Of a stretch of DNA of 14,121 nucleotides, positions 2 to 13,774 are shown piece by piece. The first letter of the stretch is position 1. Each line of letters starts with the position of its first letter. The position numbers and the translations under genes were made by a program. The notes beneath the pieces were generated by a model. That model worked only from the letters and a program-made list of their open reading frames with translations, ran no database searches and was not told the DNA's origin. Source of the stretch: a bacterium (GTDB lineage Bacteria > CSSED10-310 > JAJRTK01); assembly GCA_024278345.1 (NCBI GenBank), contig JAJRTK010000201.1:1-14121 (forward strand), written 5' to 3'.

Positions 2-2338
2 AGTGCCCTGGACCAGGCGCCGGACCTCTATTTTTTCAAGCTGTACAACGCCTGCGGCGGGAGTTCCGTCACCCGGGGCGGCCCCCCGTTGGCGCTGGAC
101 CGGTGGAACCGGGTGACGGTATCGCTTCGCCCTCTGGATAACTGCTGGCCCAGTGACGGACTCGATCTGAGCGACATCACGCGGATGGAGTTCCACACGC
201 GGGACAACGAAACGGTGAACGGCAACGGTGGGTTTTACGATGACGGCGACATCCTGACCCTCTGGTTCGACAACCTGCGGCTGGTGGACCAGAATAGCGG
301 TCAAATCCGGTGGGAAGCGCAGACCGGCGTGACCCGGTACCACGTCTATTTCGACGTCCTGACCCACGAGGGCCACCCGCCGCCGGAGCTGGCCTCGAAC
401 CTGGGCCCGGTCACGGCGCAAGGATCCGTGGGTCCCGTGGAGGCGGGCGGCTACTACCACTTGGTGGACGGAGTCTCCGGGGCGGGGAGCCTGGCCATCT
501 GGACGGCGCCCACGGTGGAAAAGATAGTTCCGGGCATGGCGGCGCCGTCGGTATCGGCGCCGCTCCGCATTGCCGCGGCGCGAGGAGAATTCGAGCCGTT
601 CCAGATCCTGGTTCGTGCCGCCGCGACGAAATCTCTGGCCGTGGGCGCCACGGACCTGGCAAAGGGAGGCGACCTGGTGCCCCGGCCCGCGCTCCACCGG
701 GTCGATACGGTTCCCATCACCACCACCGGCGATCACTTCGACCGGATCGGAGAGTGGCCCGATCCTCTCTGGCCGCTAGAACTGGGATCCTCCGTCACGT
801 TCGAGGCCGGAAAAACCCAGGGGCTCTGGTTCACGGTCCAGGTGCCGTGGGATGCGCCGGCGGGCGTTTATTCGGGGACGGTGACCATCGGGGGTGCAAG
901 CGTGCCCGTGGAGCTGGAGGTCTGGGACTTCACTCTCCCACGGGAGAGCCACCTCCCGTCGGAGTGGGGGTTCGGTTGGTCCAGTGTAGTGGAAACTTAC
1001 GGCGGCACATCGGGCGGCTCGGTCCAGCCCTGCTACTGGGATGTCGTGGACGCGCTGAAGCAGGAGTTCGCGGACCATCGCCTGATCCCCAAGGGCGTCG
1101 CCTGGCCGGCGGGCCTGAACTATCCCGGCGGGATCGAGTACGACTGCGCCGGGGGCCTCGACGCGGACGCCTGGGGCGACTGGGACTTCGCCACGCTGGG
1201 CGGCAAGTACGTTCAGGGCCAGCAGGGCTTCAACGGCGGCTACGGCTTCCCGGCTTTCCTGGCCTTCGGCCCACAGAGCAACTGGCCGCCGGACAGCCTT
1301 CCCTACTCCTTCTGCGGCATCAGCCGGAACGGCGTCCTGGGGAGCAACGCGTACCGGGCGGCATGGAAGCAGTATTTGGGCGCCCTGGATTCGTACATCA
1401 CTTCGGCGGGCTATACCGGCGCCGCCTACTACCACATCGTCAACGAGCCCCAGACCGCGGATGACTACACCATTGTCGGCCAGGTTTCGGCACTGGTGGA
1501 AGCGGCGGCCCCCAACCTCCGGCAGATGGTGAGCGAACAGGTGGAGCCGGCCATTTACACTTATCCCGGCGCCAAAATCGACATCTGGATGCCCACCATC
1601 TCCAACTACCAGGTGGAGAGAGCCCAGGATCGTCAGAAGAACCATGACGAGGAAGTCTGGTGGTATTATCTGTACGGCGACGACCCGCCCTTGCCCAATC
1701 CGATCCTCATGAGCCATCCCGGCACGGAAGCCCGGATCACGCCTTGGCTGGCCTGGGCCGAGCGCGTGGACGGGCTGCTCCACTACAGCGCCACGGACTG
1801 GAGCACCAATCCGTGGGAGCAGCCCAACGTCACGGGCAAGGACAACGGGGACGGCTTTTTCTTCTACCCGCCCAGAAAGGATGGCCTGCCGCTTGAAACC
1901 TGCGGTTCCCGGGGGAACCGGCTGGTCCCCTCCATTCGGTGGGAAAACCTCCGGGACGGGATGGAGGACTACGAGTATCTCTGGCTCCTTGCGGGAGGCA
2001 AGGCGCAAGTGGGCGTAACAAACGCCGCAGATGCTCTGGTCGCCGAGCTGGTGAGCTCCAGGACCCTCTTCAGCCGGGTTCCCACGGATCTGGAGAAAAC
2101 GCGCCGGGCCGTGGCGGAGAAGATCGCCGGCCCGCCGGTGCCCGACGCGGGATTTTACGGATTACTCGCACTCCTTTTGGCCATGAGCTGGCTGGTCGCC
2201 ACCCAAGAACGCTTCGACAAAAAAGATGCTGCCTGGCTCCGATTGCGCGGGCATCGTTCGAGCTCGGCCCCGCGAAACCAGAAGGGTTCGCTGGCGGCTC
2301 CTGCTTCCAGCCCAAGCAAATCCTCGATCTTGTCGTAA
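2..2338 (+). CDS. Secreted GH123-like (DUF4091) glycoside hydrolase, 5' end missing
   Basis: The frame is open from base 2, so the gene starts upstream; 778 residues are visible and the signal peptide is not. Residues 1-100 look like a jelly-roll carbohydrate-binding module, followed by an FN3-like stretch (about 103-170). From about 190 comes the GH123 N-terminal beta-sandwich (GEFEPFQILVRA, then VPWDAPAGVYSGTVTI and VPVELEVWDFTLP). The catalytic barrel ends with the DUF4091 signature RWENLRDGMEDYEYLWLL at about 646-663. GH123 enzymes cleave N-acetylgalactosaminides by substrate-assisted catalysis with an Asp-Glu pair; the candidate site here reads VNEPQ (N481, E482), so the usual Asp is Asn. 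Residues 717-735 form a hydrophobic C-terminal anchor after PVPDAG. About 43 polar residues follow it, unusually long. The fold assignment is firm; the substrate is unknown. Confidence 0.8.
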   Translation, partial: SALDQAPDLYFFKLYNACGGSSVTRGGPPLALDRWNRVTVSLRPLDNCWPSDGLDLSDITRMEFHTRDNETVNGNGGFYDDGDILTLWFDNLRLVDQNSGQIRWEAQTGVTRYHVYFDVLTHEGHPPPELASNLGPVTAQGSVGPVEAGGYYHLVDGVSGAGSLAIWTAPTVEKIVPGMAAPSVSAPLRIAAARGEFEPFQILVRAAATKSLAVGATDLAKGGDLVPRPALHRVDTVPITTTGDHFDRIGEWPDPLWPLELGSSVTFEAGKTQGLWFTVQVPWDAPAGVYSGTVTIGGASVPVELEVWDFTLPRESHLPSEWGFGWSSVVETYGGTSGGSVQPCYWDVVDALKQEFADHRLIPKGVAWPAGLNYPGGIEYDCAGGLDADAWGDWDFATLGGKYVQGQQGFNGGYGFPAFLAFGPQSNWPPDSLPYSFCGISRNGVLGSNAYRAAWKQYLGALDSYITSAGYTGAAYYHIVNEPQTADDYTIVGQVSALVEAAAPNLRQMVSEQVEPAIYTYPGAKIDIWMPTISNYQVERAQDRQKNHDEEVWWYYLYGDDPPLPNPILMSHPGTEARITPWLAWAERVDGLLHYSATDWSTNPWEQPNVTGKDNGDGFFFYPPRKDGLPLETCGSRGNRLVPSIRWENLRDGMEDYEYLWLLAGGKAQVGVTNAADALVAELVSSRTLFSRVPTDLEKTRRAVAEKIAGPPVPDAGFYGLLALLLAMSWLVATQERFDKKDAAWLRLRGHRSSSAPRNQKGSLAAPASSPSKSSILS

Positions 2339-2395
2339 TCCCCATCGTCGATACAGGATGCTGTGACCCTTGCCTTGAATCCAACACCCTGAACC

Positions 2396-2400
2396 AGGAA
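2396..2400 (+). promoter_or_regulatory. Ribosome binding site of the AAA-nuclease gene
   Basis: AGGAA lies 5 nt upstream of the ATG at 2406 and supports that start. The 67-bp gap after the glycosidase stop (2338) shows no obvious promoter or terminator. Confidence 0.5.
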
Positions 2401-2405
2401 CCCCA

Positions 2406-3977
2406 ATGACCCGATTCTTCAACGTCGCGGGCCCCTGCGACCCGCGCAAACACTACATGTTGCCCCCGGAGCGCCGACTCCCGGGCGTCCGCCAACTCAT
2501 CGACCGGGAACATTACTTCGTCATCCATGCTCCCCGACAGGTAGGCAAGACCACTTGTTTCCGCACACTGGCGACCCGCCTGACAAGGGAAGGACGATAT
2601 GCCGCTCTCTACACCACCTGCGAAACCGCCGAACCCGCCGCTGGCAACGTCGAAGCCGCCGTGCAGTCCATTCTCCAGTCCATGGACTTCATGGCCGAAT
2701 GCCTGCCACAAGAACTCCGGCCACCGCCCGCCGACACCTTGAGAAGCATCAATCCCGACAATCGCCTCCAGGCTTCCCTTTCCCTGTGGAGCAAGAACTC
2801 TTCTCTCCCCGTGGTTGTCTTCTTCGACGAGATCGATGCCGTCCTTGACGAAAGTCTCATCTCCGTCCTATGCCAGCTCCGGACAGGATACCTCAACCGA
2901 CCGGGAACCTTTCCGCAATCCGTAGCACTCATCGGCCTGCGCGACGTCCGCGACTACAAGATCCGCATCCGCCCCGACACCGCAAGCCTGGGCACCGCGT
3001 CTCCCTTCAACATCAAGGTGGAATCCCTCACCATCCGCAACTTCATGCAAGAAGAAGTCGCCGAACTCTACCTCCAGCACACGGAAGAGACCGGTCAGGT
3101 GTTCCAGGAAGAAGCCATGGAACTGGCCTGGGAACTGACCCGCGGCCAGCCCTGGCTCGTCAACGCACTGGCACGCCAGATCGTGGAAAAAGATATCCGC
3201 GACCGCTCCGCGCCCATCACTCCACGCCAGATCGAGGCCGCCAAGGAAGCCCTCATCCAGCGCAGGGACACACACCTCGACTCTCTCATCGACAAGCTCC
3301 GCGAACCTCGCGTCCAACGCGTCATCGAACCCATCCTCGCCGGGGAGCTCCTCCTCGACGATCGCATCCACGACGATGCCGCATACGTCCAGGACCTGGG
3401 ACTGGTCACCCGCAGGAAAGGCGCACACCTGGAAATCGCCAACCCCATCTATCGCGAAGTGATCCCCAGGGCCCTGGCCCATGGCGCACAGATGACCATT
3501 CCCTACGAGACCGCCTGGTACGTCCGGGAGGATGGCACCCTGGACATCCAGAGCCTCCTGGAAGCCTTCGTCACGTTCTGGAAGCGCCACGGCGAACCTC
3601 TCATGGGCGCACAACCCTACCACGAGATCGCCCCGCATCTCGTCCTCATGGCCTTCCTCCAGCGAATCGTCAACGGCGGCGGCACCATCGACAGGGAATA
3701 CGCCATCGGCCGTGGAAGGATGGACCTCTGCATTCGATGGCCTCACAAGGAAGGCACACAGCTTGCCGCACTGGAACTGAAGGTCTGGCGCCCCGACAGA
3801 CCCGACCCTCTCGACGAAGGCCTGGAACAACTGGGCAGATACCTGGAGAGGCTAGAGCTCAACGAAGGCGTCCTCGTCCTCTTCGACCGGAGGCCAGAAG
3901 CACCTCTCATCGAGGAACGCACCAGAATCGAAACACTGCGGCACGACGGCGGGGCGATCACTCTCCTTCGCCTTTAG
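2406..3977 (+). CDS. AAA-like ATPase fused to PD-(D/E)XK nuclease domain
   Basis: This is a 523-residue cytoplasmic protein without signal peptide. The start MTRFFNVAGP is typical of AAA-like (AAA_35/ATPase_2-type) proteins. A Walker A motif lies at 42-50 (APRQVGKTT, K48; the first Gly of the classic loop is Ala). Walker B is at 136-144 (VVVFFDEID, D141-E142). A helical region with RGQPWLVNALA (246-256) follows, as in STAND-like ATPases. The C-terminal 120 residues carry a nuclease core: D440 in GRGRMDL, E457 and K459 in LELKVWR, and Q475/Y479 in QLGRYL. This matches the ATPase plus PDDEXK_9-like arrangement found in many multi-copy genes of environmental bacteria; its biological role is not established, though defence or mobile-element functions are often suspected. 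It looks foreign among secreted glycan genes. It runs convergently towards the beta-helix gene. Confidence 0.85.
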   Translation: MTRFFNVAGPCDPRKHYMLPPERRLPGVRQLIDREHYFVIHAPRQVGKTTCFRTLATRLTREGRYAALYTTCETAEPAAGNVEAAVQSILQSMDFMAECLPQELRPPPADTLRSINPDNRLQASLSLWSKNSSLPVVVFFDEIDAVLDESLISVLCQLRTGYLNRPGTFPQSVALIGLRDVRDYKIRIRPDTASLGTASPFNIKVESLTIRNFMQEEVAELYLQHTEETGQVFQEEAMELAWELTRGQPWLVNALARQIVEKDIRDRSAPITPRQIEAAKEALIQRRDTHLDSLIDKLREPRVQRVIEPILAGELLLDDRIHDDAAYVQDLGLVTRRKGAHLEIANPIYREVIPRALAHGAQMTIPYETAWYVREDGTLDIQSLLEAFVTFWKRHGEPLMGAQPYHEIAPHLVLMAFLQRIVNGGGTIDREYAIGRGRMDLCIRWPHKEGTQLAALELKVWRPDRPDPLDEGLEQLGRYLERLELNEGVLVLFDRRPEAPLIEERTRIETLRHDGGAITLLRL

Positions 3978-4026
3978 AATGGCCAACCGTACGACAACCG
4001 GAGCGCCCGCCCGCAGAGCCAGTGGG

Positions 4027-4045
4027 AAAAATGCCTTTGGGGCAC
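4027..4045 (-). terminator. Weak intrinsic-terminator-like hairpin
   Basis: Read on the minus strand, GTGCC-CCAAA-GGCAT followed by Ts gives a five-pair stem (one G-U) and a T5 tract. It lies about 70 bp past the stop of the minus-strand beta-helix gene and could end its transcript. The short stem makes this tentative. Confidence 0.3.
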
Positions 4046-4056
4046 CAAGACAAGGT

Positions 4057-4110
4057 CGAGGGCGATGAGGGGCGAGTGGCGGGAGCCGGATGGCGACCGA
4101 CGCGAGCGGA
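4057..4110 (+). repeat. GC-rich dispersed intergenic repeat, copy A
   Basis: Aligned without gaps against bases 13716-13774, roughly 46 of 58 positions are identical by eye. Both copies share the lead AGGGC-ATGA-GGGCGAG and the trailer CGCGAGCGGA. Copy A lies in the gap between two convergent genes and directly abuts the FGE remnant. Its internal hairpin is weaker than in copy B. Nature unknown: REP-like element, MITE end or bidirectional terminator. Confidence 0.6.
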
Positions 4111-4112
4111 CC

Positions 4113-6218
4113 TCAACCTGAAGAAAAACAGCAGTTGTTTGCAGGACAAACGGGCTTCAGCATCCCAGCATCGGTTTGGAGCTGCGCCCCACGCGGCGGA
4201 AATGATCTGCACGACACCATAGGCAATGTGTGCGAGTGGGTCCGGGACTGGTTTGAAATCGGGTGGCCTCGTTTCCGAACCGCTAATCCCAGAAGGGATA
4301 GCAGGAGTATCAGGGAAACCAAGATCGAGGGCCATGGGGTGGAGAGGCGGGCTCCGGGGCAACCCGATGAGTCCGTGTACTGGCTTGCTCCAGTGCCCGG
4401 ACAACGATCCCAGGCATCGGGGACACCGTCTCCATCGGCATCGGGACAGTCGCACGGCCAGGGAGTGGCCGTCGGGGACGCGCTGATGGTGGGAGTGGGG
4501 CTGGGTCCGGGCGGTGGAGAGGGCGTCGGGGTTGCCAAGGATCCAGATCCGTATTCGTATGCGCCCCGATCCACGCCTGTCCCAACAGGGCGAGAATTGC
4601 CATCCCGATCATCTGATGGCACGAGGCCGCCCAGGCTCCCCACGGGAAGCCCGTTGTCCAGAGCAGGACTTCCAGTTTGCAGGTGTCCATCGAAGGCGGC
4701 TAGGGTATCGTTGACCAGCAGAGGATCCTGGCACAGGTTGTTCCCGCCATCACATGGCGATGTGCCGCCAAATTTGGCTCCCCAAAAGAGATTGTAGCTC
4801 ACGCCAGTATCGGCAAAGCCGGAGGGATCGTAGAGGAAACAGGTGGTATCGCCTGGCTGGAGGTAATCGGTGTAGCCTAGAAACAGGCTGTTCCGCAGGC
4901 GGATCTGCTCGGTGCCGTTGCAAGCTCCTGGAACCCGGCATTCGGCGATGACCAGGCAATCGCCTTCCCCGGCCAGGGTGGAATTGACGACATCGATGAC
5001 GGACCCGGGCTGGGGATTGAGGGCCAGGGCGGAACCACCGGCGCGGCAGTGGTTGAAAACACCGCTCGATTCGGTGAATGACTTCCCGTCAAAAAAGCTG
5101 CAGTGGCTGATCATGACGCTGTTCACTACCTGAGTGGGACCGGAAACCTTCATCTGGTCTCCCGCATTGGCGAAAGCCAGGCTCTGGCGGATGACGATGG
5201 ACGACGCGTACTGGGCGTCGCCTCCGACGTACAGCAGGTCTAGCCCGTCGCTGGTATTGTACCGGAAGAGGGAATCCTCGATGAGCCAATCACCGCCGGT
5301 GGCCCCCGTCCCCACGCCATCACCATAGCCTCCAAGAACCTGTTCCCAGCAGTGCTCGGGCTGAAGCCCCGGATAACTTTCGCCGCACCCATTCCACTCC
5401 ACGGTCCATCTGCGAAACACCATGGAACCGCTGTTGGAACTGTCTCCGCCGATATCCCCATTCCAGCCAGCCCAACCATTGGCGGCGATGCGAACATCTT
5501 CCACCGTCCAATCCGCCAAACGTCCTGCCCAGATTCCCTGGTTTGCCAGGCCGTGGATGTTCAAGTTTTGGAGACGGAGATCCGCGGAATCCCGGGCGAA
5601 AATACCGGTGGATGCCCATGGTCCGTAGGGGTAAGTGTCCCGCTCGCAGGCGACGGAAGGCGAACAACCCGTCCCGCCAGGGTCGGGGCAGAAGAATTCG
5701 ATACACTGGGAGTGATCGGTCAGTTCCAAGCAGGCGACCTCCGCGTGGGACGTGCCGCTCAGATTCAGGATGAAATCAGTCCGCTGCGTTCCCCAAAGCT
5801 CCGGAGGCGAGGGGCAGCCCGCGTTGTAGCCCTGGCCCAGGAGTCGCGTGGGAGTCAGGGCGTTGGGGCCGGAAGGCAGGGAAGGCAGATGGCAAGTGAA
5901 GGCTCCAGCTGAATCGCACCATCCTGTATTGGGCGCCCCATACCCCATTTCATAGCTTCCAGCGCCGATCATGAGGGTGTCGCCACCCTGGAGCTTCCAA
6001 GCGGCTGTGCCCCCCGCCGCGCTCAAGGCCCAAAAAGGGTGGGACCAGGCACAGGGCAAACCAGTTCCAGTCCCGGGATAAGAGGCATCGACGAGACCTG
6101 TACACTGATCTGAACTGCCCCCGTCGATCCGGATATAGTAGGTGGCTGATCGGGCCGTGCAAACAAACAGGGCCAGCGCCATAAGCGCTGGCCCCAAAGC
6201 CATAAGCGTGGATTTCAT
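4113..6218 (-). CDS. Secreted right-handed parallel beta-helix protein with C-terminal anchor
   Basis: The start at 6218 is chosen because it gives a clean signal peptide (MKSTLMALGPALMALALF, cleavage near ARS-A, residue 24) and has GGAGG 6 nt upstream. The frame stays open 150 codons further upstream, but that part looks non-coding. The 701-residue product has a Cys-rich N-terminal region, then parallel beta-helix rungs (DLRLQNLNIHGLANQGIW, DWLIEDSLFRYNTSDGLDLL). It closes with DDRDGNSRPVGTGVDRGAYEY near residue 550, as in choice-of-anchor Q proteins. A Thr/Pro/Ser linker, a Ca-binding thrombospondin type-3 motif (DADGDGVPD) and a hydrophobic anchor (about 630-648) with RKRGHP follow. Such helices bind or cleave acidic polysaccharides; no catalytic residues could be assigned. 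The last ~48 residues are antisense to the FGE remnant and probably not native. Confidence 0.85.
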   Translation of the reverse strand: MKSTLMALGPALMALALFVCTARSATYYIRIDGGSSDQCTGLVDASYPGTGTGLPCAWSHPFWALSAAGGTAAWKLQGGDTLMIGAGSYEMGYGAPNTGWCDSAGAFTCHLPSLPSGPNALTPTRLLGQGYNAGCPSPPELWGTQRTDFILNLSGTSHAEVACLELTDHSQCIEFFCPDPGGTGCSPSVACERDTYPYGPWASTGIFARDSADLRLQNLNIHGLANQGIWAGRLADWTVEDVRIAANGWAGWNGDIGGDSSNSGSMVFRRWTVEWNGCGESYPGLQPEHCWEQVLGGYGDGVGTGATGGDWLIEDSLFRYNTSDGLDLLYVGGDAQYASSIVIRQSLAFANAGDQMKVSGPTQVVNSVMISHCSFFDGKSFTESSGVFNHCRAGGSALALNPQPGSVIDVVNSTLAGEGDCLVIAECRVPGACNGTEQIRLRNSLFLGYTDYLQPGDTTCFLYDPSGFADTGVSYNLFWGAKFGGTSPCDGGNNLCQDPLLVNDTLAAFDGHLQTGSPALDNGLPVGSLGGLVPSDDRDGNSRPVGTGVDRGAYEYGSGSLATPTPSPPPGPSPTPTISASPTATPWPCDCPDADGDGVPDAWDRCPGTGASQYTDSSGCPGARLSTPWPSILVSLILLLSLLGLAVRKRGHPISNQSRTHSHTLPMVSCRSFPPRGAQLQTDAGMLKPVCPANNCCFSSG
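4141..4257 (+). pseudogene. Remnant of a formylglycine-generating-enzyme (FGE-sulfatase/SUMF1) domain
   Basis: Translating the plus strand from about 4165 gives PASVWSCAPRGGN and then DLHDTIGNVCEWVRDWF (4204-4254). This matches the core FGE-sulfatase signature, family form roughly PVGS-P-N--GLYDM-GNVWEW--DWY. In the family this motif sits in the middle to C-terminal half of a 250-300-residue domain. Nothing recognisable of the domain precedes it (repeat copy A lies upstream). After DWF the frame runs into DNA that encodes, on the other strand, the C-terminal anchor of the beta-helix protein. The usual RGGSW and C-terminal GFR blocks are absent. Only about 40-50 codons survive with no start or stop of their own, so I call it a decayed fragment. 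Homology is inferred from the motif only. Confidence 0.65.
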
Positions 6219-6224
6219 GGCTGG

Positions 6225-6229
6225 CCTCC
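6225..6229 (-). promoter_or_regulatory. Ribosome binding site deciding the beta-helix start
   Basis: On the minus strand GGAGG lies 6 nt before the ATG at 6218. It favours this start over the longer open frame reaching 6668. Confidence 0.75.
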
Positions 6230-6534
6230 GTGGCAGTCCCGGGCAGGATTTCCGAGCATCGGCGCAATTCCCGATGCCAACCCGCGGGACGATGATGGCA
6301 CCGCCGACCGGGATCCAACTCCAAGCCGACTCGATCCTTCGCGACGATCGAATCTTAGGGTAGACAAAAGTTTGGCGCCACCCCCGCGACACGAATTCGA
6401 TGGGTGCGAAAAGAGTATGAAACTCATTTCGAGCCCGTTTTCTCTTGCTTACCCGAAGAGCGTCCTGTAACTTCTTCCTTGTGGGATCATCGCCAAAACA
6501 CTCACCTTCCGGCCAGACCCGGGGACGCTCGGGT

Positions 6535-6540
6535 GGGAGG
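6535..6540 (+). promoter_or_regulatory. Ribosome binding site of the RCC1-repeat gene
   Basis: GGGAGG lies 9 nt before the ATG at 6550, supporting that start over the in-frame TTG at 6445. Confidence 0.65.
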
Positions 6541-6549
6541 TTCAGGCCC

Positions 6550-8955
6550 ATGACATCGCCTCTTGTTTCCGCCCCGGCCTTCTCCCTGCCCCCTCTGGGG
6601 AGAGCGGGTCTCCTCCAGACTTTTCGGCTCCACGGGAATGGTGTCTCCGCCGTGTTGGTTCTGAGCACTGCACTGGTACTGCTGCTCTTCCCTGCTTTCG
6701 CCAGAGCTGCCGGGTTTCCCTATGCCTGGGGGGACAGCGCCGATGGAAAACTGGGCTACCTTCCCGCCGGGATACCCGAGATTACAGGGGTGACTGCCAT
6801 TGCGACCAAGGGCGATCACCTGCTGGGACTCAAGGGGGATGGCACCGTTTGGACTTGGGGTCGAAACGAATCCGGCCAACTGGGGGAGGGCACCAACACG
6901 AACCGGAATAGGCCCGTGCAGGTGCGGGATCTGGCAGGCGTGATTGCCGTATCTGGTGGAAACAGGCACTCGCTGGCGGTGAAGGGGGATGGCACGGTCT
7001 GGGCCTGGGGTTTGAATATCCATGGCCAACTGGGAGATGGTGGCCTCTGGGACCGGAACAGGCCTGGCCAGGTGACGGGTCTGACCGGCGCCATTGCCGT
7101 GGCCGGTGGTTACGATTATTCCATGGCCCTAAAAAGTGACGGCACGATCTGGACCTGGGGCGACAACTCTTACGGCCAACTGGGGGATGGAACGAATTTG
7201 CAGCGGACCAGCCCGGTTCAAGTGACTGGTGTGACCGCCATCACACTGGCCGCGGGGTATGATCACTCTTTGGCATTGAAGGAAGACGGCACCATTTGGG
7301 CTTGGGGCAATAACTTCTTCGGCCAACTGGGCGACGGCACCACCACCGACCGAAGCATGCCCGTACAAACAATCGGTCTCACGGAGATCGTTGCCATCGC
7401 CGCCGGCAGTGCTCATTCTCTGGCGTTGAAAGGGGACGGCAGTGTCTGGGCTTGGGGCGACAATAGTAACGGCCAACTGGGGGATGGGACGACCACGGAC
7501 CACACAACTCCAGTGGAGGTCACAGGCCTCACGGGCATCACTGCCATCGCCGCGGGATTTGGTTCTTCCCACGCGCTGAAGAGCGATGGCACGGTCTGGG
7601 CCTGGGGAGCCAACCTCTATGGTCAGCTTGGGGACGGCACCGCAACTGACCGCCACGTGCCGGTGCGGATGACGGGGCTCGCGGGGGTCACCGCCATCGC
7701 CGCTGGAAACGGCTCTCTGTTGGTGCTGAAAAGCGACGGCACGGTGACAGCGCGGGGAGCCGGGCAGGACGGCCAATTGGGGAATGGCACCACCACTGGG
7801 AATCCTCAGAAGCTATCATCTCTTGCGGAGATCACAATGGTGGCGGGAGGAAACAATCACTCACTGGCATTGAAAAATGATGGGACGGTCTGGGCCTGGG
7901 GCGCCAATTTCTACGACCAACTGGGGGACGGCACCGGTACAAGCCAAGTGGCGCCGGTCCAGGTCAGCGATCTGACGGGCATCGTCGATCTGGCGGCAGG
8001 AGGGGATCATTCGCTGGGATTGAAGGAAGATGGCACTCTCTGGGCCTGGGGCGCTAACTATGCCGGGCAACTTGGGGATGGAACAACCATAGGACGGTGG
8101 GCACCAGCCCGGGTGACTGGACTCACAAGAGTCATGGCCGTGGCTGGGGGCTTGGAGCACTCACTGGCGTTGAAGGAAAACGGCACCATTTGGGCCTGGG
8201 GCATCAACGATGCCGGGCAACTTGGGAATGGCACCACGACTGACCAGCTAACGCCAGTGCAGGTGAGTGGCCTGACTGGCATCATCGCCCTCACTGGCGG
8301 GGCAAAGCATTCAGCCGCGATAACAGGCGATGGAGCGGTCTGGGCCTGGGGCCAGAATCTCTACGGCCAACTGGGCGATGGTACGGCTGCAGACCGGACG
8401 ACGCCTGTTGAGGTCAAGGAACTCTCAAGCGTAACCGCCATCGCCGCAGGATGGAATCACACCCTTGCGTTGAGGGAAAATGGCACGGTCTGGGCCTGGG
8501 GCCAGAATCTCTACGGCCAACTGGGAGATGGTACAATGCTGGACCGGGTCACGCCGGCTCAGGTGAGCGGTCTGGCAAACATCATCGCCATCGCTTGCGG
8601 TGCCAATCAATCTCTGGGCTTGAGGAAAGACGGTACCCTCTGGGCCTGGGGCGCAAACGGAAAGGGTGAACTTGGCGACGGCACCTCCACGGACCGTGCG
8701 GCACCAGTGCAGGTGATCAATTCAGCCGGTACGGGATGGCTGCAGGGTATCACTTTTGTGGCGGCTGGAACTCGCCATACGCTGGCCGTTTCTTCTCCGT
8801 CATTAGTCCCGACTCAGGCACCCTTCGGTATCGCCTGGCTCCTGATGCTAATGCTGATGGGCCTTCTTACGGGAATCATGCTGAGGCCGCAGCCCTCTCT
8901 CCAGGTTTGCCCAACGCCGAAGGCTGACCAAAGGGAAACCTCAAGAAGCAAATAG
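6550..8955 (+). CDS. Secreted 14-repeat RCC1-type beta-propeller protein
   Basis: The 801-residue product starts at ATG 6550, which has a good ribosome binding site. A long polar n-region precedes a hydrophobic core (32-50) with likely cleavage at ARA-A (53). Nearly the whole mature protein is RCC1 repeats of about 50 residues with the pattern WAWG-N--GQLGDGT--D---PVQV-GL---AIAAG--HSLALK-DGTV. I count 14 copies, the first degenerate (GDSADGKLGY) and the eighth diverged (GAGQDGQLGNGT). RCC1 folds are seven-bladed, so this is probably two propellers in tandem. Residues 757-778 form a hydrophobic C-terminal anchor after VPTQAPFG. Bacterial secreted RCC1 proteins are generally binding or adhesive rather than exchange factors; the ligand is unknown. 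It lies 27 bp before the GH5 gene, probably in one transcript. Confidence 0.9.
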   Translation: MTSPLVSAPAFSLPPLGRAGLLQTFRLHGNGVSAVLVLSTALVLLLFPAFARAAGFPYAWGDSADGKLGYLPAGIPEITGVTAIATKGDHLLGLKGDGTVWTWGRNESGQLGEGTNTNRNRPVQVRDLAGVIAVSGGNRHSLAVKGDGTVWAWGLNIHGQLGDGGLWDRNRPGQVTGLTGAIAVAGGYDYSMALKSDGTIWTWGDNSYGQLGDGTNLQRTSPVQVTGVTAITLAAGYDHSLALKEDGTIWAWGNNFFGQLGDGTTTDRSMPVQTIGLTEIVAIAAGSAHSLALKGDGSVWAWGDNSNGQLGDGTTTDHTTPVEVTGLTGITAIAAGFGSSHALKSDGTVWAWGANLYGQLGDGTATDRHVPVRMTGLAGVTAIAAGNGSLLVLKSDGTVTARGAGQDGQLGNGTTTGNPQKLSSLAEITMVAGGNNHSLALKNDGTVWAWGANFYDQLGDGTGTSQVAPVQVSDLTGIVDLAAGGDHSLGLKEDGTLWAWGANYAGQLGDGTTIGRWAPARVTGLTRVMAVAGGLEHSLALKENGTIWAWGINDAGQLGNGTTTDQLTPVQVSGLTGIIALTGGAKHSAAITGDGAVWAWGQNLYGQLGDGTAADRTTPVEVKELSSVTAIAAGWNHTLALRENGTVWAWGQNLYGQLGDGTMLDRVTPAQVSGLANIIAIACGANQSLGLRKDGTLWAWGANGKGELGDGTSTDRAAPVQVINSAGTGWLQGITFVAAGTRHTLAVSSPSLVPTQAPFGIAWLLMLMLMGLLTGIMLRPQPSLQVCPTPKADQRETSRSK
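6718..8793 (+). repeat. Tandem ~150-bp repeats encoding RCC1 blades
   Basis: Fourteen units of about 150 bp underlie the RCC1 repeats. DNA identity is highest between units 12 and 13: 8338-8384 and 8488-8534 differ at one base in 47 at an offset of exactly 150. Confidence 0.85.
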
Positions 8956-8970
8956 AGTCTCTGGGTGGCC

Positions 8971-8976
8971 AGGAGG
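8971..8976 (+). promoter_or_regulatory. Ribosome binding site of the GH5 gene
   Basis: A perfect AGGAGG stands 6 nt before the ATG at 8983. It selects that ATG over the in-frame GTG at 8965, which would place the site inside the coding sequence. Confidence 0.8.
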
Positions 8977-8982
8977 AAACTG

Positions 8983-10668
8983 ATGATCAAGAGAGACAAG
9001 CGATGCAGGGTGATTCCCATTCTTGGAGCAGTGGGCTTTCTTTGGTTTCCTTCAGCGGTCGTGGGGCAAGGCTATATTCAAGCCAACGGTCGGGATCTTG
9101 TTTACACTGTTTCGCAGCAAAATCTTTGTCTTCGGGGGGTCGGCTTCGCCACGGACCTCTTGCGGGATCCCAACGACCCCGCCGCCGACTGGGAGCGGAA
9201 TTCGCCTGGAGACAACTGGATCCCGGTGACAGACTGGTATTCGGAGTCGGACGTGCAAAGTCTTGCGGGATTCGGCTTCAACATGTTGCGAATCGCCTTG
9301 AACTACCGGATGTTCGAAGATGATGGCGACCCCTGCACCTGCAACCTTCTGAACGAAGAATGCGCGAACATTTTCAGTTTCCCGGCGGGAGATGCGTGCA
9401 ACTACGTCAATTCCGTCTGGAGCCAGGATCCCAGCTATTCGTCGGGGTGGCACTACCTGGACACCTGGATCCAGTGGGCCAAGAACCATGGTGTCACCAT
9501 TGTTTTCGACATGCACACGCCCCAGGGTGGCCTCCAGTTGAGCGCACCGGGAGTCTTGCTCTGGACCGATTCCCAGAGGTCCGACCGACTGGTGCGCCTG
9601 TGGCGGGCCATCGCCAAGCGCTACGCCAACGAGTCGGTGGTGGCGGCTTTCGACATGCTCAACGAGCCATCGCCGGCGGAGCCGGGCCCCCAGGTCTCCA
9701 CGGGGCAGTTGTGGCAAACTTTGGCGGGGCGAATCATCGCGGAAATCCGCAAGGAAGACACGCAACATCTGATCATCATGGAGCGGGTCATCGCCATCAC
9801 GGACGAGAACTTTAATTTCGCCTACGACGAGTACACGCTGCCCATGGCGAACTCGTGGTTTCTTATGGGCGACTCGAACGTGATGTACGACTTTCACTAT
9901 TACTGGCCCATGATCAACCACCAGCCCAACTGGGGCCTATGCGGCGGGACGATCAACTACCCGGCCCCTTCGATCCTGGAGGACAGCTTCCAAGGCCAAC
10001 CGCAAATTCCTTGCGACTACAACGGCGTGGAGAGCCACTTTCAGGCGTTCAACGATTTTGGGGTGACAAACCAGGTCCCCACGAGCGTGACGGAATGGGG
10101 TGGTGCCAGTTTGGGAGGCGATATTTTTAGCTACGTGGGCGGGCTTCAGTATATCCAAGACATGCTGAGCATCCTAGAGGGGAACCACGCCAATTCGGCC
10201 TTCTTCTACACGAACATCCTGCACCAGAACAGCGACCAGGCTCAGCCATTTGACCCCACTCGAACGTCGATCTTCTCCAATTATTTCCAAGGGGCCACTT
10301 GCGTGGCGCTCAATCCAACCGCGACAGCGACTCCCACCCAGACATCCCTGGCGACCTGGAACGCCACGATGACGCCGACGGCCACAGCGAGCGCCACCGG
10401 GAAACCGGGCACATCGACTCCGGTTTCCGGCACGGCCACGCCAAGTCTCTCGCCCACGGCAACCAGCACAGCCCCAGCGGGCCTGTCGCCCACGGCGACC
10501 CTGGCCTTTGGCACCCCCTCTTCCACGGCGACAAAAAGCCCATCCTCCCCCCCGACCCCATCGCCCCTGCAAGCATCCTCCAGCAACGAAGGAAATCAGT
10601 GGCTCCTGGTGGGCCTGGTGGGGCTGCTCTTCTTGATGATCCGGATTCAAGAGTTCAAGGTTCCATGA
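8983..10668 (+). CDS. Secreted glycoside hydrolase family 5 (cellulase-fold) enzyme
   Basis: The 561-residue protein begins with a signal peptide (MIKRDKRCRVIPILGAVGFL, cleavage near residue 28). The GH5 (beta/alpha)8 barrel spans about 30-440: FNMLRIALNYRMF early on, H178 in FDMHTPQGG, the acid/base E228 in DMLNEP, H305-Y306 in YDFHYYW, and the nucleophile E371 in VTEWGG. All expected catalytic residues are present, so it should be an active retaining endo-beta-glycosidase. Subfamily and substrate (glucan, mannan, or a sphingolipid glycan as in endoglycoceramidases) cannot be read from sequence. A Thr/Pro/Ser linker (about 445-535) leads to a hydrophobic C-terminal segment (539-556) and a short tail. 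It lies directly behind the RCC1 gene and has the strongest ribosome binding site here. Confidence 0.9.
   Translation: MIKRDKRCRVIPILGAVGFLWFPSAVVGQGYIQANGRDLVYTVSQQNLCLRGVGFATDLLRDPNDPAADWERNSPGDNWIPVTDWYSESDVQSLAGFGFNMLRIALNYRMFEDDGDPCTCNLLNEECANIFSFPAGDACNYVNSVWSQDPSYSSGWHYLDTWIQWAKNHGVTIVFDMHTPQGGLQLSAPGVLLWTDSQRSDRLVRLWRAIAKRYANESVVAAFDMLNEPSPAEPGPQVSTGQLWQTLAGRIIAEIRKEDTQHLIIMERVIAITDENFNFAYDEYTLPMANSWFLMGDSNVMYDFHYYWPMINHQPNWGLCGGTINYPAPSILEDSFQGQPQIPCDYNGVESHFQAFNDFGVTNQVPTSVTEWGGASLGGDIFSYVGGLQYIQDMLSILEGNHANSAFFYTNILHQNSDQAQPFDPTRTSIFSNYFQGATCVALNPTATATPTQTSLATWNATMTPTATASATGKPGTSTPVSGTATPSLSPTATSTAPAGLSPTATLAFGTPSSTATKSPSSPPTPSPLQASSSNEGNQWLLVGLVGLLFLMIRIQEFKVP
10312..10587 (+). 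repeat. Low-complexity Thr/Pro/Ser linker sequence
   Basis: This coding stretch of the GH5 gene is made of repeated ACG/ACC-CCN/GCG codons (PTATATPT, TASATG, SPTATSTAP). It gives an extended, probably glycosylated spacer between barrel and anchor. The beta-helix protein has a shorter linker of the same kind. Confidence 0.8.
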
Positions 10669-11054
10669 AGAAGGCGCTCGAACACGTCCCCGTTGAACAA
10701 GGAGGCGCACACGGGCATCCGCGGTTAGCAGGAGACTCCCGGGTTGCCGTGAAGGCGACGACCTCGATGCCGCAGTTTTCCAGAACCAGACAGTGGACGT
10801 CCGTGGATCCGGGCCACAAGTGGTGGTGGGCGGCGACAAGCATCCGCGGCGGGAAAAGAGGATTGCCGGTGCCGTTGGTGGGTTCGGGCGCGGCAAACAA
10901 GACGCCTGGTGGCCCCAAGGGCGATCTAGGCGACGGCTGGCATGATAAATGCGAAGGACATATAGCTGCGCAACCCATGAATCAAGGCCCCGCACCCACC
11001 GGGAGGGCGCGACGCGTCGCGCACGTCGCCCCTCATGCCTCTGGGGGTGGTTCG
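10669..11054. other. Intergenic gap between GH5 and propeller genes
   Basis: These 386 bp hold no gene I can support. They contain repeat copy C near the right end. On the minus strand, between about 10735 and 10860, a stretch reads RMLVAAHHHLWPGSTDVH and then LVLENCGIEVVAFTATRES. It vaguely recalls a Rossmann-like or cobalamin-binding fold and may be a gene remnant. No clear promoter or terminator was seen. Confidence 0.4.
10998..11043 (-). repeat. GC-rich dispersed repeat, copy C, with 16-bp palindrome
   Basis: The minus strand reads GGCATGAGGGGCGAC, sharing ATGAGGGGCGA exactly with copy A. It is followed, as in copy B, by a GC-rich dyad. Here the dyad is the perfect 16-bp palindrome GCGCGACGCGTCGCGC at 11007-11022. 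It ends about 12 bp before the start of the propeller gene. The match to copies A and B is shorter than theirs to each other. Confidence 0.45.
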
Positions 11055-13655
11055 ATGCTCTCTATGACTGTTCAGTGCCAACCTGCTCGAGTCTTCTTCC
11101 TCTTCGTGGTCATCGGAAGCGCGGCCTCCCAGGCGAGCCCTGCTTCCGGGCTTTCGGGCGGGCTGCCTTCCTTTGGATGGGATCGGGTCGGTTCCACGGA
11201 GTATCCGATTTTCCCACTGTCGGAGCTGTACCTGGAGGAAGCGGATCTGGATGGAGGCGAAGACTGGCCGGAGTGTAGCATCCTCGTGAATGGGCGGCTG
11301 TACATCGCCACGGGGACGAATCCCGGCCGGATCGTCCAGATCGATCCGCGTACGTTGCGGCGGATCCGGACGATCAGGCTGGCGCCGGGCGAGGATCGGC
11401 CTCGCAGCGTCGTGGCCTTTGGCGGTTCTCTGTACTTCGGTACGAACACGCGGATCGGGCGGATCGTCGAAGTCGGCTTGTCTCCGTTCGAGCGGCGGCG
11501 GAGCCTGAAGCTGGCACCCGGGGACAACTATTTGCTCAGTGCCGTGGCGGCGGGTCGGAACGCCTATTTTGCCACGGGCGGGGAAGCGAGGCGGATCGTC
11601 CAGGTGGACCTTGCGGCCATGCGGCGGCTGGGGAGCCTGGAACTGGACGATGGGACGGAGCCTTTGGAAACCGCCGTCGCCTGGAAGGGGATGGGATATT
11701 TCGGCGCGAAAGGCCGGATCCTCCGCATCGGCTTGAGTCCGCTCCGAGAACTGGGAAGCCTGTCGAACCTGCCGTCGGGAAGCGCGAGGATCCTCAGTTC
11801 CGTCCGCGTGAACGGGGAGGCCTTCTTCGGCACCGATGGCCGGCCCTCGTCCATACTGCGCCTCGACCTGGCCGGGTTCCGGGTCACGGGGAGCCTTCGC
11901 CTCCAATGCCCCGACGAGTGGGAGTTCCCTTTCCAGTGCGAAGAAGGACTCGGCGCCGCCGTGGCCACGGATTCCCACCTCTATTTCGCCATCGGCACGG
12001 GGAACGTCTACGGTCGCATCCTGCGGGTCGAGAGAAAAAGCCTGACTCGGGCAGGGGTGCTCTACACGGAGAAAGGTATCAAGAGCGCGGCGCTCTGGAA
12101 CGGCGCCGGCTTCTTCGTCGCCGACTCAAGCCCCGGGAAGGTGGCCAAGATCGATCTCGACGCATTCAAGAAAGATGGCCTGCTATTGCTGCGGCGGGGG
12201 GAAGAGAATCCGCAAGCCCTGGCCATCGTGGGAGACCATGCCTACCTGGCCACCGGGACGAGGCCCGCCAGGCTCGTGCGCATCAATCTCCGGACGTTTC
12301 GACACGACCGGGCTATCGACCTGGCGCCGGAAGAGATCTACCCGAGCCTTTTGCTGACCGCCGGCTCCACGGCCTACCTGGCCACGGGAGGAACCACCGG
12401 CCGCATCGTGGAGATCGATCTCCGGGAATTCCGGCGCACCGGCGCATGGAAGCTGCCCTCGGATTGGGGCTACATCACCTGCGGCTTCGTCTCCAAGGGC
12501 CGCATCTACCTGGGAACGACGTCCGAGCCGGCTCGCATCCTCCGATTCGATCTCTCCCCGTTGCGACTGACGGGCAGTCTGAGGCTCGAATCCGGGCAGA
12601 CGACCCTCCGCTCTGCCGTCGCCGTGGGGAATTACGGCTATTTCGCCATGGACGGACAGCGGTGGAACGACCCTACCCGCGTGGTGCAAATCGACCTGGA
12701 CCAGATGCGCCAGGTGGAGACCATCTCCTTCGCACCGGGCAAATGGGGCCGCGCCGTGACCGCCCTGGCCTACCGGAACGCCCCCTACATCCTGGCGGGC
12801 GCCAGCCTGATAAAACTTCGCCTCCATCCCCTGGCGATAGAGAAGTCGCTCAACCTGGACAGTTGCGAATGGGGGATCTCCATCGACGCCAGATCAGCCG
12901 TTGTCAGCGGAAAAACCGCCTACATCGGCACCGTGGGATCGTTCTCGCAATTCGACGGGGAGTGCGCCGGCATCCTTGCCATCGACCTGGACTCGTTCCA
13001 GCAAATCGACTGCCCCGTGGGCGCCGCCGACATGCAGTCGGCTCTGCTGGCCGGAGCCGCCGACAAGAACTTCGTCTATTTCACGGTGTCCGGCTATCCC
13101 GACAGACTCCTTCGCCTGCGGCCACGCTCCCAGGAGTTCCGGATCCAGGCGACCCGCGCCCACCTGGAAGAACCCGGCGAGATCGTGGCCATGCAGTGGT
13201 ACGCACACGAAGCCGCTGGGCATGTACGGCTAGCCCTCTACGACAGCAGTCGCGACCTGCTCTGGCAGAGCCATCCCCGCAAAGTGGATCGTGGCGGCGT
13301 CCTGCTCACCATCCCCATCTCTTCCGGCTCCCCGTCCCGCCTGGACCCACTCACGCCCGGCGACTACTTCCTGGCCTGGCAGATCGACACGCCCGCCCCG
13401 GTGCCGAGCTACACGGAAGGCCACCCCGGCGACGGATGGACCGAGTCCACCTGGGAGTTCGACGCCTTCCCCTCCTGGGCAAGCTCCGTGACGCCCACCG
13501 CCGCAAAATGGACGCAATTCGCCATCTACAAGCCGGTGGAAACCCTGGAGACTCCGCGTTTCTTTCCGGCTCTTGGCCTCTTTCTGGGCCTTCTTCTTTT
13601 TTGGAGACGCGTAAGGCCACGGGGAAACCCCGCCCAAAGCAAGGGAAGCCCATGA
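11055..13655 (+). CDS. Secreted double YncE-like beta-propeller protein with C-terminal anchor
   Basis: The chosen ATG at 11055 gives 866 residues and a signal peptide (hydrophobic core RVFFLFVVIGSAASQA, cleavage near residue 27). A purine-rich GGGGGTGG lies just upstream; ATG 11064 is an alternative. The frame is open far upstream into the GH5 gene, but that part is a shadow. Residues about 82-697 are repeats of about 45 residues, consensus YFGT---PGRIVQIDL--FRR-GSL-L--GE---SAV, of which I count 14. This is the YncE/NHL-like propeller type, so two seven-bladed propellers are likely. A beta-sandwich-like domain follows (about 696-830, EIVAMQWYAHEAAGHVRLAL, GDYFLAWQID). A hydrophobic anchor with RRVRPRG ends the protein (836-855). 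No catalytic motif was seen; a binding or structural surface role is inferred. Confidence 0.85.
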   Translation: MLSMTVQCQPARVFFLFVVIGSAASQASPASGLSGGLPSFGWDRVGSTEYPIFPLSELYLEEADLDGGEDWPECSILVNGRLYIATGTNPGRIVQIDPRTLRRIRTIRLAPGEDRPRSVVAFGGSLYFGTNTRIGRIVEVGLSPFERRRSLKLAPGDNYLLSAVAAGRNAYFATGGEARRIVQVDLAAMRRLGSLELDDGTEPLETAVAWKGMGYFGAKGRILRIGLSPLRELGSLSNLPSGSARILSSVRVNGEAFFGTDGRPSSILRLDLAGFRVTGSLRLQCPDEWEFPFQCEEGLGAAVATDSHLYFAIGTGNVYGRILRVERKSLTRAGVLYTEKGIKSAALWNGAGFFVADSSPGKVAKIDLDAFKKDGLLLLRRGEENPQALAIVGDHAYLATGTRPARLVRINLRTFRHDRAIDLAPEEIYPSLLLTAGSTAYLATGGTTGRIVEIDLREFRRTGAWKLPSDWGYITCGFVSKGRIYLGTTSEPARILRFDLSPLRLTGSLRLESGQTTLRSAVAVGNYGYFAMDGQRWNDPTRVVQIDLDQMRQVETISFAPGKWGRAVTALAYRNAPYILAGASLIKLRLHPLAIEKSLNLDSCEWGISIDARSAVVSGKTAYIGTVGSFSQFDGECAGILAIDLDSFQQIDCPVGAADMQSALLAGAADKNFVYFTVSGYPDRLLRLRPRSQEFRIQATRAHLEEPGEIVAMQWYAHEAAGHVRLALYDSSRDLLWQSHPRKVDRGGVLLTIPISSGSPSRLDPLTPGDYFLAWQIDTPAPVPSYTEGHPGDGWTESTWEFDAFPSWASSVTPTAAKWTQFAIYKPVETLETPRFFPALGLFLGLLLFWRRVRPRGNPAQSKGSP
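11298..13146 (+). repeat. Fourteen propeller repeats
   Basis: Repeated Y(F/L)(G/A)T, RI(V/L), (I/V)DL and SAV blocks recur about every 135-150 bp. Units 5, 11 and 13 have insertions, and units 4 and 12 are degenerate. Unlike the RCC1 array the units are diverged at DNA level, so this is an old expansion. Confidence 0.75.
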
Positions 13656-13673: not shown

Positions 13674-13715
13674 CGGCCTTCCGGCTGGAGTCTTCCACCG
13701 GTTTTTGGATGAAGT

Positions 13716-13774
13716 CCAGGGCTATGAAGGGCGAGCGGCGGCGGACGGATTGCCGCCGCCGCGAGCGGAAGCCA
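13716..13774 (+). repeat. GC-rich dispersed intergenic repeat, copy B
   Basis: This is the best-structured copy of the element also seen at 4057-4110. It shares the lead AGGGC-ATGA-GGGCGAG and trailer CGCGAGCGGA. It again lies between two convergent genes (stops at 13655 and 13835). Confidence 0.6.
13735..13762. terminator. Strong GC hairpin, possible bidirectional terminator
   Basis: GCGGCGGCGG (13735-13744) pairs perfectly with CCGCCGCCGC (13753-13762) around an 8-nt loop. It sits between convergent gene ends. No T-tract follows on either strand, so termination or 3'-end protection is inferred from position only. Confidence 0.45.

Follow-up and report, generated by a model that had tools for sequence, protein, structure and literature searches.

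The exosortase proposal, which defined the motifs Cys, Asn-x-x-Arg and His as a putative catalytic triad (PMC1569441), is the source from which the mechanism of exosortase H (XrtH) is drawn here by analogy, and archaeosortase A is known to cleave and lipid-anchor its substrates (PMC7157517). The XrtH/IPTL-CTERM pair was defined by sequence and is barely studied by experiment; in the literature searched we found no work on exosortase H, a single paper naming IPTL-CTERM, and nothing to show that any XrtH attaches lipids.

The DNA analysed, hereafter the window, is a contig of 14,121 nucleotides (C125) from a 6.06 Mb genome (550 contigs, 88% complete). A previous reading of its sequence alone had proposed that five secreted proteins share a C-terminal hydrophobic anchor similar to IPTL-like tails handled by exosortase-type enzymes. 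The observation was partly confirmed, and its interpretation is partly supported and largely right in kind. The features are collected in Table 1.

Table 1. Features of the window, and loci elsewhere in the genome and the phylum that are discussed in the text
Feature	Position	Strand	Remarks
GH123-like secreted protein; candidate XrtH substrate	2..2338	+	Pfam GH123_cat 6.6e-23; 5' end beyond window; tail PPVPDAGFYG-LLALLLAMSWLVA
VPDAGFYG motif ([VI]P-x5-G), GH123	2138..2161	+	motif score p 0.025 vs internal membrane segments
GH123 hydrophobic segment	2159..2200	+	followed by 43 residues, no net basic cluster; atypical
AAA-ATPase-like gene (sixth gene)	2406-3977	+	C-terminal part weakly matches NucS-type nuclease; apparently unrelated to the tails
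Remnant frame	3975-4300	+	carries NDLHDTIGNVCEWVRDWFEIG; antisense to long extension of beta-helix gene
Intergenic repeat	4055-4110 and 13714-13769		80% identity between copies
Beta-helix / choice-of-anchor Q protein	4113..6218	-	signal peptide MKSTLMALGPALMALALFVCTARSA; C-terminal segment
Beta-helix protein hydrophobic segment	4278..4325	-	followed by RKRG and long extension; without VP motif
RCC1-repeat secreted protein; candidate XrtH substrate	6550..8955	+	RCC1 1.7e-165; tail LVPTQAPFG-IAWLLMLMLMGLLTGIML
VPTQAPFG motif ([VI]P[AT]-x4-G), RCC1 protein	8806..8829	+	p 0.004 vs internal membrane segments
RCC1 protein hydrophobic segment	8830..8883	+	23 residues remain after it
GH5 secreted protein	8965..10668	+	Cellulase 7.1e-22; Ser/Thr/Pro linker; C-terminal segment without VP motif
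GH5 hydrophobic segment	10600..10641	+	
Repeat ('propeller') secreted protein	11055..13655	+	sub-threshold DUF6923; internal repeats D5-D7; C-terminal segment; basic cluster WRRVRPRG
Propeller TPRFFPALG and hydrophobic segment	13551..13604	+	borderline motif
XrtH-associated partner loci	L002:1883-2419, L003:1988-2602, L075:9756-10370, L076:8950-9720, L078:7068-7766, L079:8880-9785, L081:8329-9081, L082:10187-10774		
VIT-domain proteins beside own sorting enzymes	L004:2978-5392 (C373), L182:9502-12325 (C491)		

C-terminal tails of the window proteins

The domain identities first given to the five proteins held for GH123, RCC1 and GH5, which are confirmed by Pfam. The beta-helix protein exceeds the cut-off of NF041518 (choice_anch_Q) and remains just under that of Pfam Beta_helix (24.2 vs 25.9 bits), and the propeller label is left with a sub-threshold match and internal repeats only. 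A hydrophobic N-terminus was detected, by hydropathy or direct reading, in the RCC1, GH5, beta-helix and propeller proteins, the start of GH123 lying outside the window.

A hydrophobic segment was seen near the C-terminus in 5/5 ORFs, as originally described. Where a P-x-x-G-like motif had been said to precede several of them, [VI]P-x5-G was found in GH123 and RCC1, in which VPDAGFYG and VPTQAPFG directly precede the segment with Val-Pro, five residues and Gly, which is the spacing of IPTLSEWG. The propeller sequence TPRFFPALG matches [VI]P-x5-G poorly and is doubtful, and no VP motif was found on reading the beta-helix (STPWPS) and GH5 tails ahead of the segment, in such a way that the motif with the right spacing is present in 2/5 tails and to speak of a signal shared by the five was too strong. 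Motif scores were obtained from a table built from relatives alone, with the genome's own internal membrane segments as the background, and with this table the beta-helix and GH5 tails are not set apart from those segments.

Basic residues had been reported near most tails. The net charge in the eight residues past the segment is +4 in the propeller and +3 in the beta-helix protein; RCC1 and GH5 have +1 each and GH123 has 0, whereas the tails examined elsewhere in this genome and its phylum have +2 to +5. The distance from segment to C-terminus is 43 residues in GH123, 23 in RCC1, 54 in the beta-helix protein, 8 in GH5 and 16 in the propeller protein, compared with 3-19 elsewhere. A compact basic cluster at the extreme C-terminus was found in none of the five, GH5 and the propeller protein being the nearest.

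That the tails fit no named class exactly proved right in the strict sense, as the window proteins gave no match to the IPTL-CTERM model TIGR04174 and the best match in the genome reached 13 bits, under the cut-off of 20.5. A tail model trained on relatives scored near noise on the window proteins, and direct reading of their tails revealed no LPxTG-like or GlyGly motif. Read as sorting tails, they are weak specimens, among the least canonical seen in the genome.

The remnant frame opposite the beta-helix gene resembles, we presume, part of formylglycine-generating/sulfatase-modifying proteins. As for the intergenic repeat of the window, similar frames of the 'GRRTDCRR' type also lie between genes elsewhere in the genome, which suggests a dispersed repeat.

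Sorting enzymes and related tails in the genome and the phylum

Three matches to Exosortase_EpsH (PF09721) were found in the genome. Two of them are short enzymes that exceed the XrtH cut-off of TIGR04177 (91.1 and 88.8 vs 86 bits), with Cys, Asn-x-x-Arg and His intact, C97, N135, R138 and H157 being invariant among ten homologues. A BNR/sortilin-like protein ending in VVPGLGAAGVVVLLLLFGLLLNPVCWRK, with the motif VPGLGAAG, is encoded 2.4 kb upstream of one of them.

Each of the two XrtH genes is followed by a gene for an XrtH-associated-like membrane protein, and wherever the flanks of an XrtH locus could be read, that of G003 excepted, a gene for a small membrane protein comes after XrtH. These partners match NF041730 (exosortase H-associated membrane protein) below its cut-off, with a best E of 2.5e-4 and 20.8 vs 35 bits for the best relative. 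The XrtH model even picks up one partner copy of this genome (E 2.3e-5), and the comparison of XrtH and partner profiles gave an E of 1e-4 with a modest 56% probability. AlphaFold2 models of XrtH (pLDDT 86) and partner (pLDDT 83) have in common the order helices, three strands, three helices, and the partner has no aligned counterparts of the Cys, Asn-x-x-Arg and His of XrtH. A search of solved structures by sequence and fold returned no relatives of either protein. Sequence, profile and predicted secondary-structure order suggest that the XrtH-associated protein may be a catalytically dead exosortase paralogue, a concrete testable idea on how XrtH works. That XrtH and this partner work together as a heteromer, with the dead subunit reading the tail or handing over the carrier, is a tentative and rather doubtful extension; if true, it could explain the use of loose signals in this phylum.

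The third exosortase, a long one on C373, adjoins a VIT-domain protein ending in GIPEPEEWLLLLLGSATLIFLAMRRRK, the sole protein of the genome over the PEP-CTERM cut-off (TIGR02595). A class sortase on C491 (4.3e-28) adjoins a VIT-VWA protein ending in LPRGGTTG...LSRRLSHG. From their position beside a single VIT protein with a tail of its own, the long exosortase and the sortase each look like part of a dedicated pair, and because of this XrtH is likely the general enzyme. No rhombosortase was found over the cut-off of TIGR03902, the best rhomboid-like match having 21 vs 84 bits. As the two VIT proteins each adjoin their own enzyme, the genome carries, with XrtH, three kinds of C-terminal sorting.

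Further tails were looked for in sampled stretches of the genome that add up to 0.77 Mb, with genes called by a home-made program; genome totals are therefore rough. With the window excluded, a C-terminal membrane segment was detected in 12/51 secreted-like proteins (350 or more residues, without internal membrane segments) vs 4/73 non-secreted ones (p = 0.004), two of the 12 (L095 and L166) not resembling genuine tails. At the sample rate, five tails in five neighbouring proteins would have a probability of about 7e-4, for a cluster that was chosen by eye. The motifs VPALGSLG, VPGLGAAG, VPARAGWY, VPTGNEHL and IPAPRGNS recur in the genome, and compact [VI]P-TM-basic tails, in which the C-terminus follows 5-12 residues later, were found on other proteins (VPALGSLGIAFMGLVALAFGLLLTRR, VPARAGWYETGLLFLLLLLGGAVLGRGRRR, MIPAWTGTLGTILLLGLLAFFMASRRRR, IPASSLLT..., VPTGNEHLLILVALLVMGSWLVARRRK and IPAPRGNSFVLMLLLAGLFLVIRRRR in the sample). 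These proteins are unrelated, as for instance an endonuclease I/lamin-tail protein and a 2371-aa FG-GAP protein; degenerate tails with good basic ends, VIGQAPWS and RPGYGGVG, are present too. [VI]P[ATGSD], one of several patterns tried, precedes 4/21 C-terminal segments vs 6/291 internal ones (p 0.0025), and the pooled motif score of C-terminal vs internal segments was borderline (p 0.053). Scaled up roughly from the sample, the number of tails would be of the order of 100 per genome. Models trained on the tails of the window and the genome were little informative and mostly returned their training sequences, and a single tail used as query returned itself alone.

XrtH is present in 8/8 genomes examined from the phylum vs 4/90 from other phyla (p about 3e-8), and one XrtH used as query against the contigs of named genomes gave one short match, in Omnitrophota. 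TIGR04174 is exceeded in 3 of the 8 phylum genomes; outside the phylum it is exceeded in 3/4 genomes with XrtH, in 0/20 lacking it and in 0/14 named controls. In total, IPTL-CTERM is found in 6/12 XrtH genomes vs 0/34 others (p about 1e-4), the others being the 20 XrtH-lacking genomes plus the 14 controls, which were not screened for XrtH. The tails of relatives are canonical IPTL-like and read [IV]P[AT]x4[GA]-TM-basic (VPTMNEWGMIIFTALTGLGAVYYLKKK, VPTLSGWAMILLTLLLGTVVLVSTRSR, IPATNQWGLLLMIGILSGILFISSRR, IPTTGPAGIGLLMLALGALMSLAGIRRKK). This co-distribution reproduces the XrtH/IPTL pairing, with the present genome at its degenerate end. The phylum, with tails that range from canonical to very degenerate, is well suited to the question of how loose a signal an exosortase accepts. 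Since XrtH is found phylum-wide, its presence in this genome cannot by itself tie the enzyme to the window proteins.

Origin of the window tails

We consider it likely that the five segments are diverged XrtH/IPTL-CTERM sorting tails, with a good case for GH123 and RCC1, a possible one for the propeller protein, and a weak one for the beta-helix protein and GH5. The IPTL-like tail and the exosortase put forward in the sequence-only reading are supported by the two XrtH, the recurrent tails, the canonical tails of relatives and the co-occurrence of XrtH with IPTL-CTERM. By analogy with the exosortase proposal and with archaeosortase A, we infer cleavage by XrtH, transfer to a carrier and the choice of substrates by each XrtH; the tails that lack the motif may be used as well. 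Either XrtH, probably acting with the XrtH-associated protein encoded next to it, would attack near the motif through the conserved Cys and would cut at or near VP, on the outer side of the inner membrane; the hydrophobic stub of the tail would then be released, and XrtH would pass the protein to a surface carrier, either a lipid, as archaeosortase A does, or a polysaccharide.

The division of the motif, present in 2/5 tails, is also what would be found if the cluster were a mixture in which GH123, RCC1 and perhaps the propeller protein are XrtH substrates and the tails of the beta-helix protein and GH5 have decayed or are simple anchors. In such a mixture, loss of its own stop codon may have let the beta-helix gene run on into a degenerate, sulfatase-modifying-like remnant of the other strand; its extension does overlap the GNVCEWVRDWF-like frame of the + strand and adjoins the intergenic repeat. 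However, the signal is degenerate genome-wide, as in VIGQAPWS and RPGYGGVG, so that a missing VP is weak evidence, and we regard the mixture as a serious contender while leaning slightly against it. Plain membrane anchoring, with a transmembrane helix that holds the proteins without any processing, agrees with the absence of the motif from two or three of the five, with the zero net charge after the GH123 segment, with the long extensions and with the lack of window matches to curated CTERM models. It is nevertheless unlikely, given the compact [VI]P-TM-basic tails that end shortly after the segment on other proteins of the genome, the cognate enzymes in this genome and the canonical tails in relatives. 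Plain tail anchors were indeed the original expectation for a proteome with no recurrent motif and no sortase-like enzyme, and here two XrtH are present and similar tails recur.

The genome also has a long exosortase, a class sortase and a sub-cut-off rhomboid-like protein, any of which might serve the tails in place of XrtH. We find this quite improbable: the exosortase and the sortase adjoin single VIT targets ending in PEP-CTERM and LPRGG, an arrangement typical of dedicated pairs, one PEP-CTERM protein is over the cut-off genome-wide, and the window tails have neither GlyGly nor LPxTG.

Relation to known sorting systems

Among the named classes considered for the window tails, MYXO-CTERM was rejected because they lack its invariant Cys, and LPXTG because they lack such a motif and the sortase lies beside its own VIT-VWA target. 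GlyGly-CTERM/rhombosortase (PMC3237569) is similar in its tripartite layout and in the many-to-one logic, but it was also rejected, as the genome has no rhombosortase over the cut-off and the tails have no Gly/Ser-rich motif. Archaeosortase A with PGF-CTERM (PMC7157517) belongs to a homologous superfamily, has an active-site Cys and serves as a model for cleavage plus lipid attachment, whereas its motif is another one and its substrates are archaeal S-layer proteins. The PEP-CTERM/EpsH system (TIGR02595/TIGR02602; PMC1569441) has the same tripartite motif-TM-basic tail and an enzyme with Cys, Asn-x-x-Arg and His, but PEP is absent from the window tails and the sole PEP-CTERM protein of the genome, the VIT protein of C373, adjoins its own exosortase.

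The closest system is XrtH (TIGR04177) with IPTL-CTERM (TIGR04174) and NF041730, which agrees in an enzyme over the XrtH cut-off, the [VI]P-x5-G spacing, tripartite tails, a neighbouring partner gene and co-distribution. The present genome differs from it in degenerate tails under the IPTL-CTERM cut-off, in having two XrtH modules, and in partner proteins that match NF041730 below cut-off. It is thus a diverged example, in an uncultured phylum, of a known and hardly studied form of protein sorting, and not a new system.
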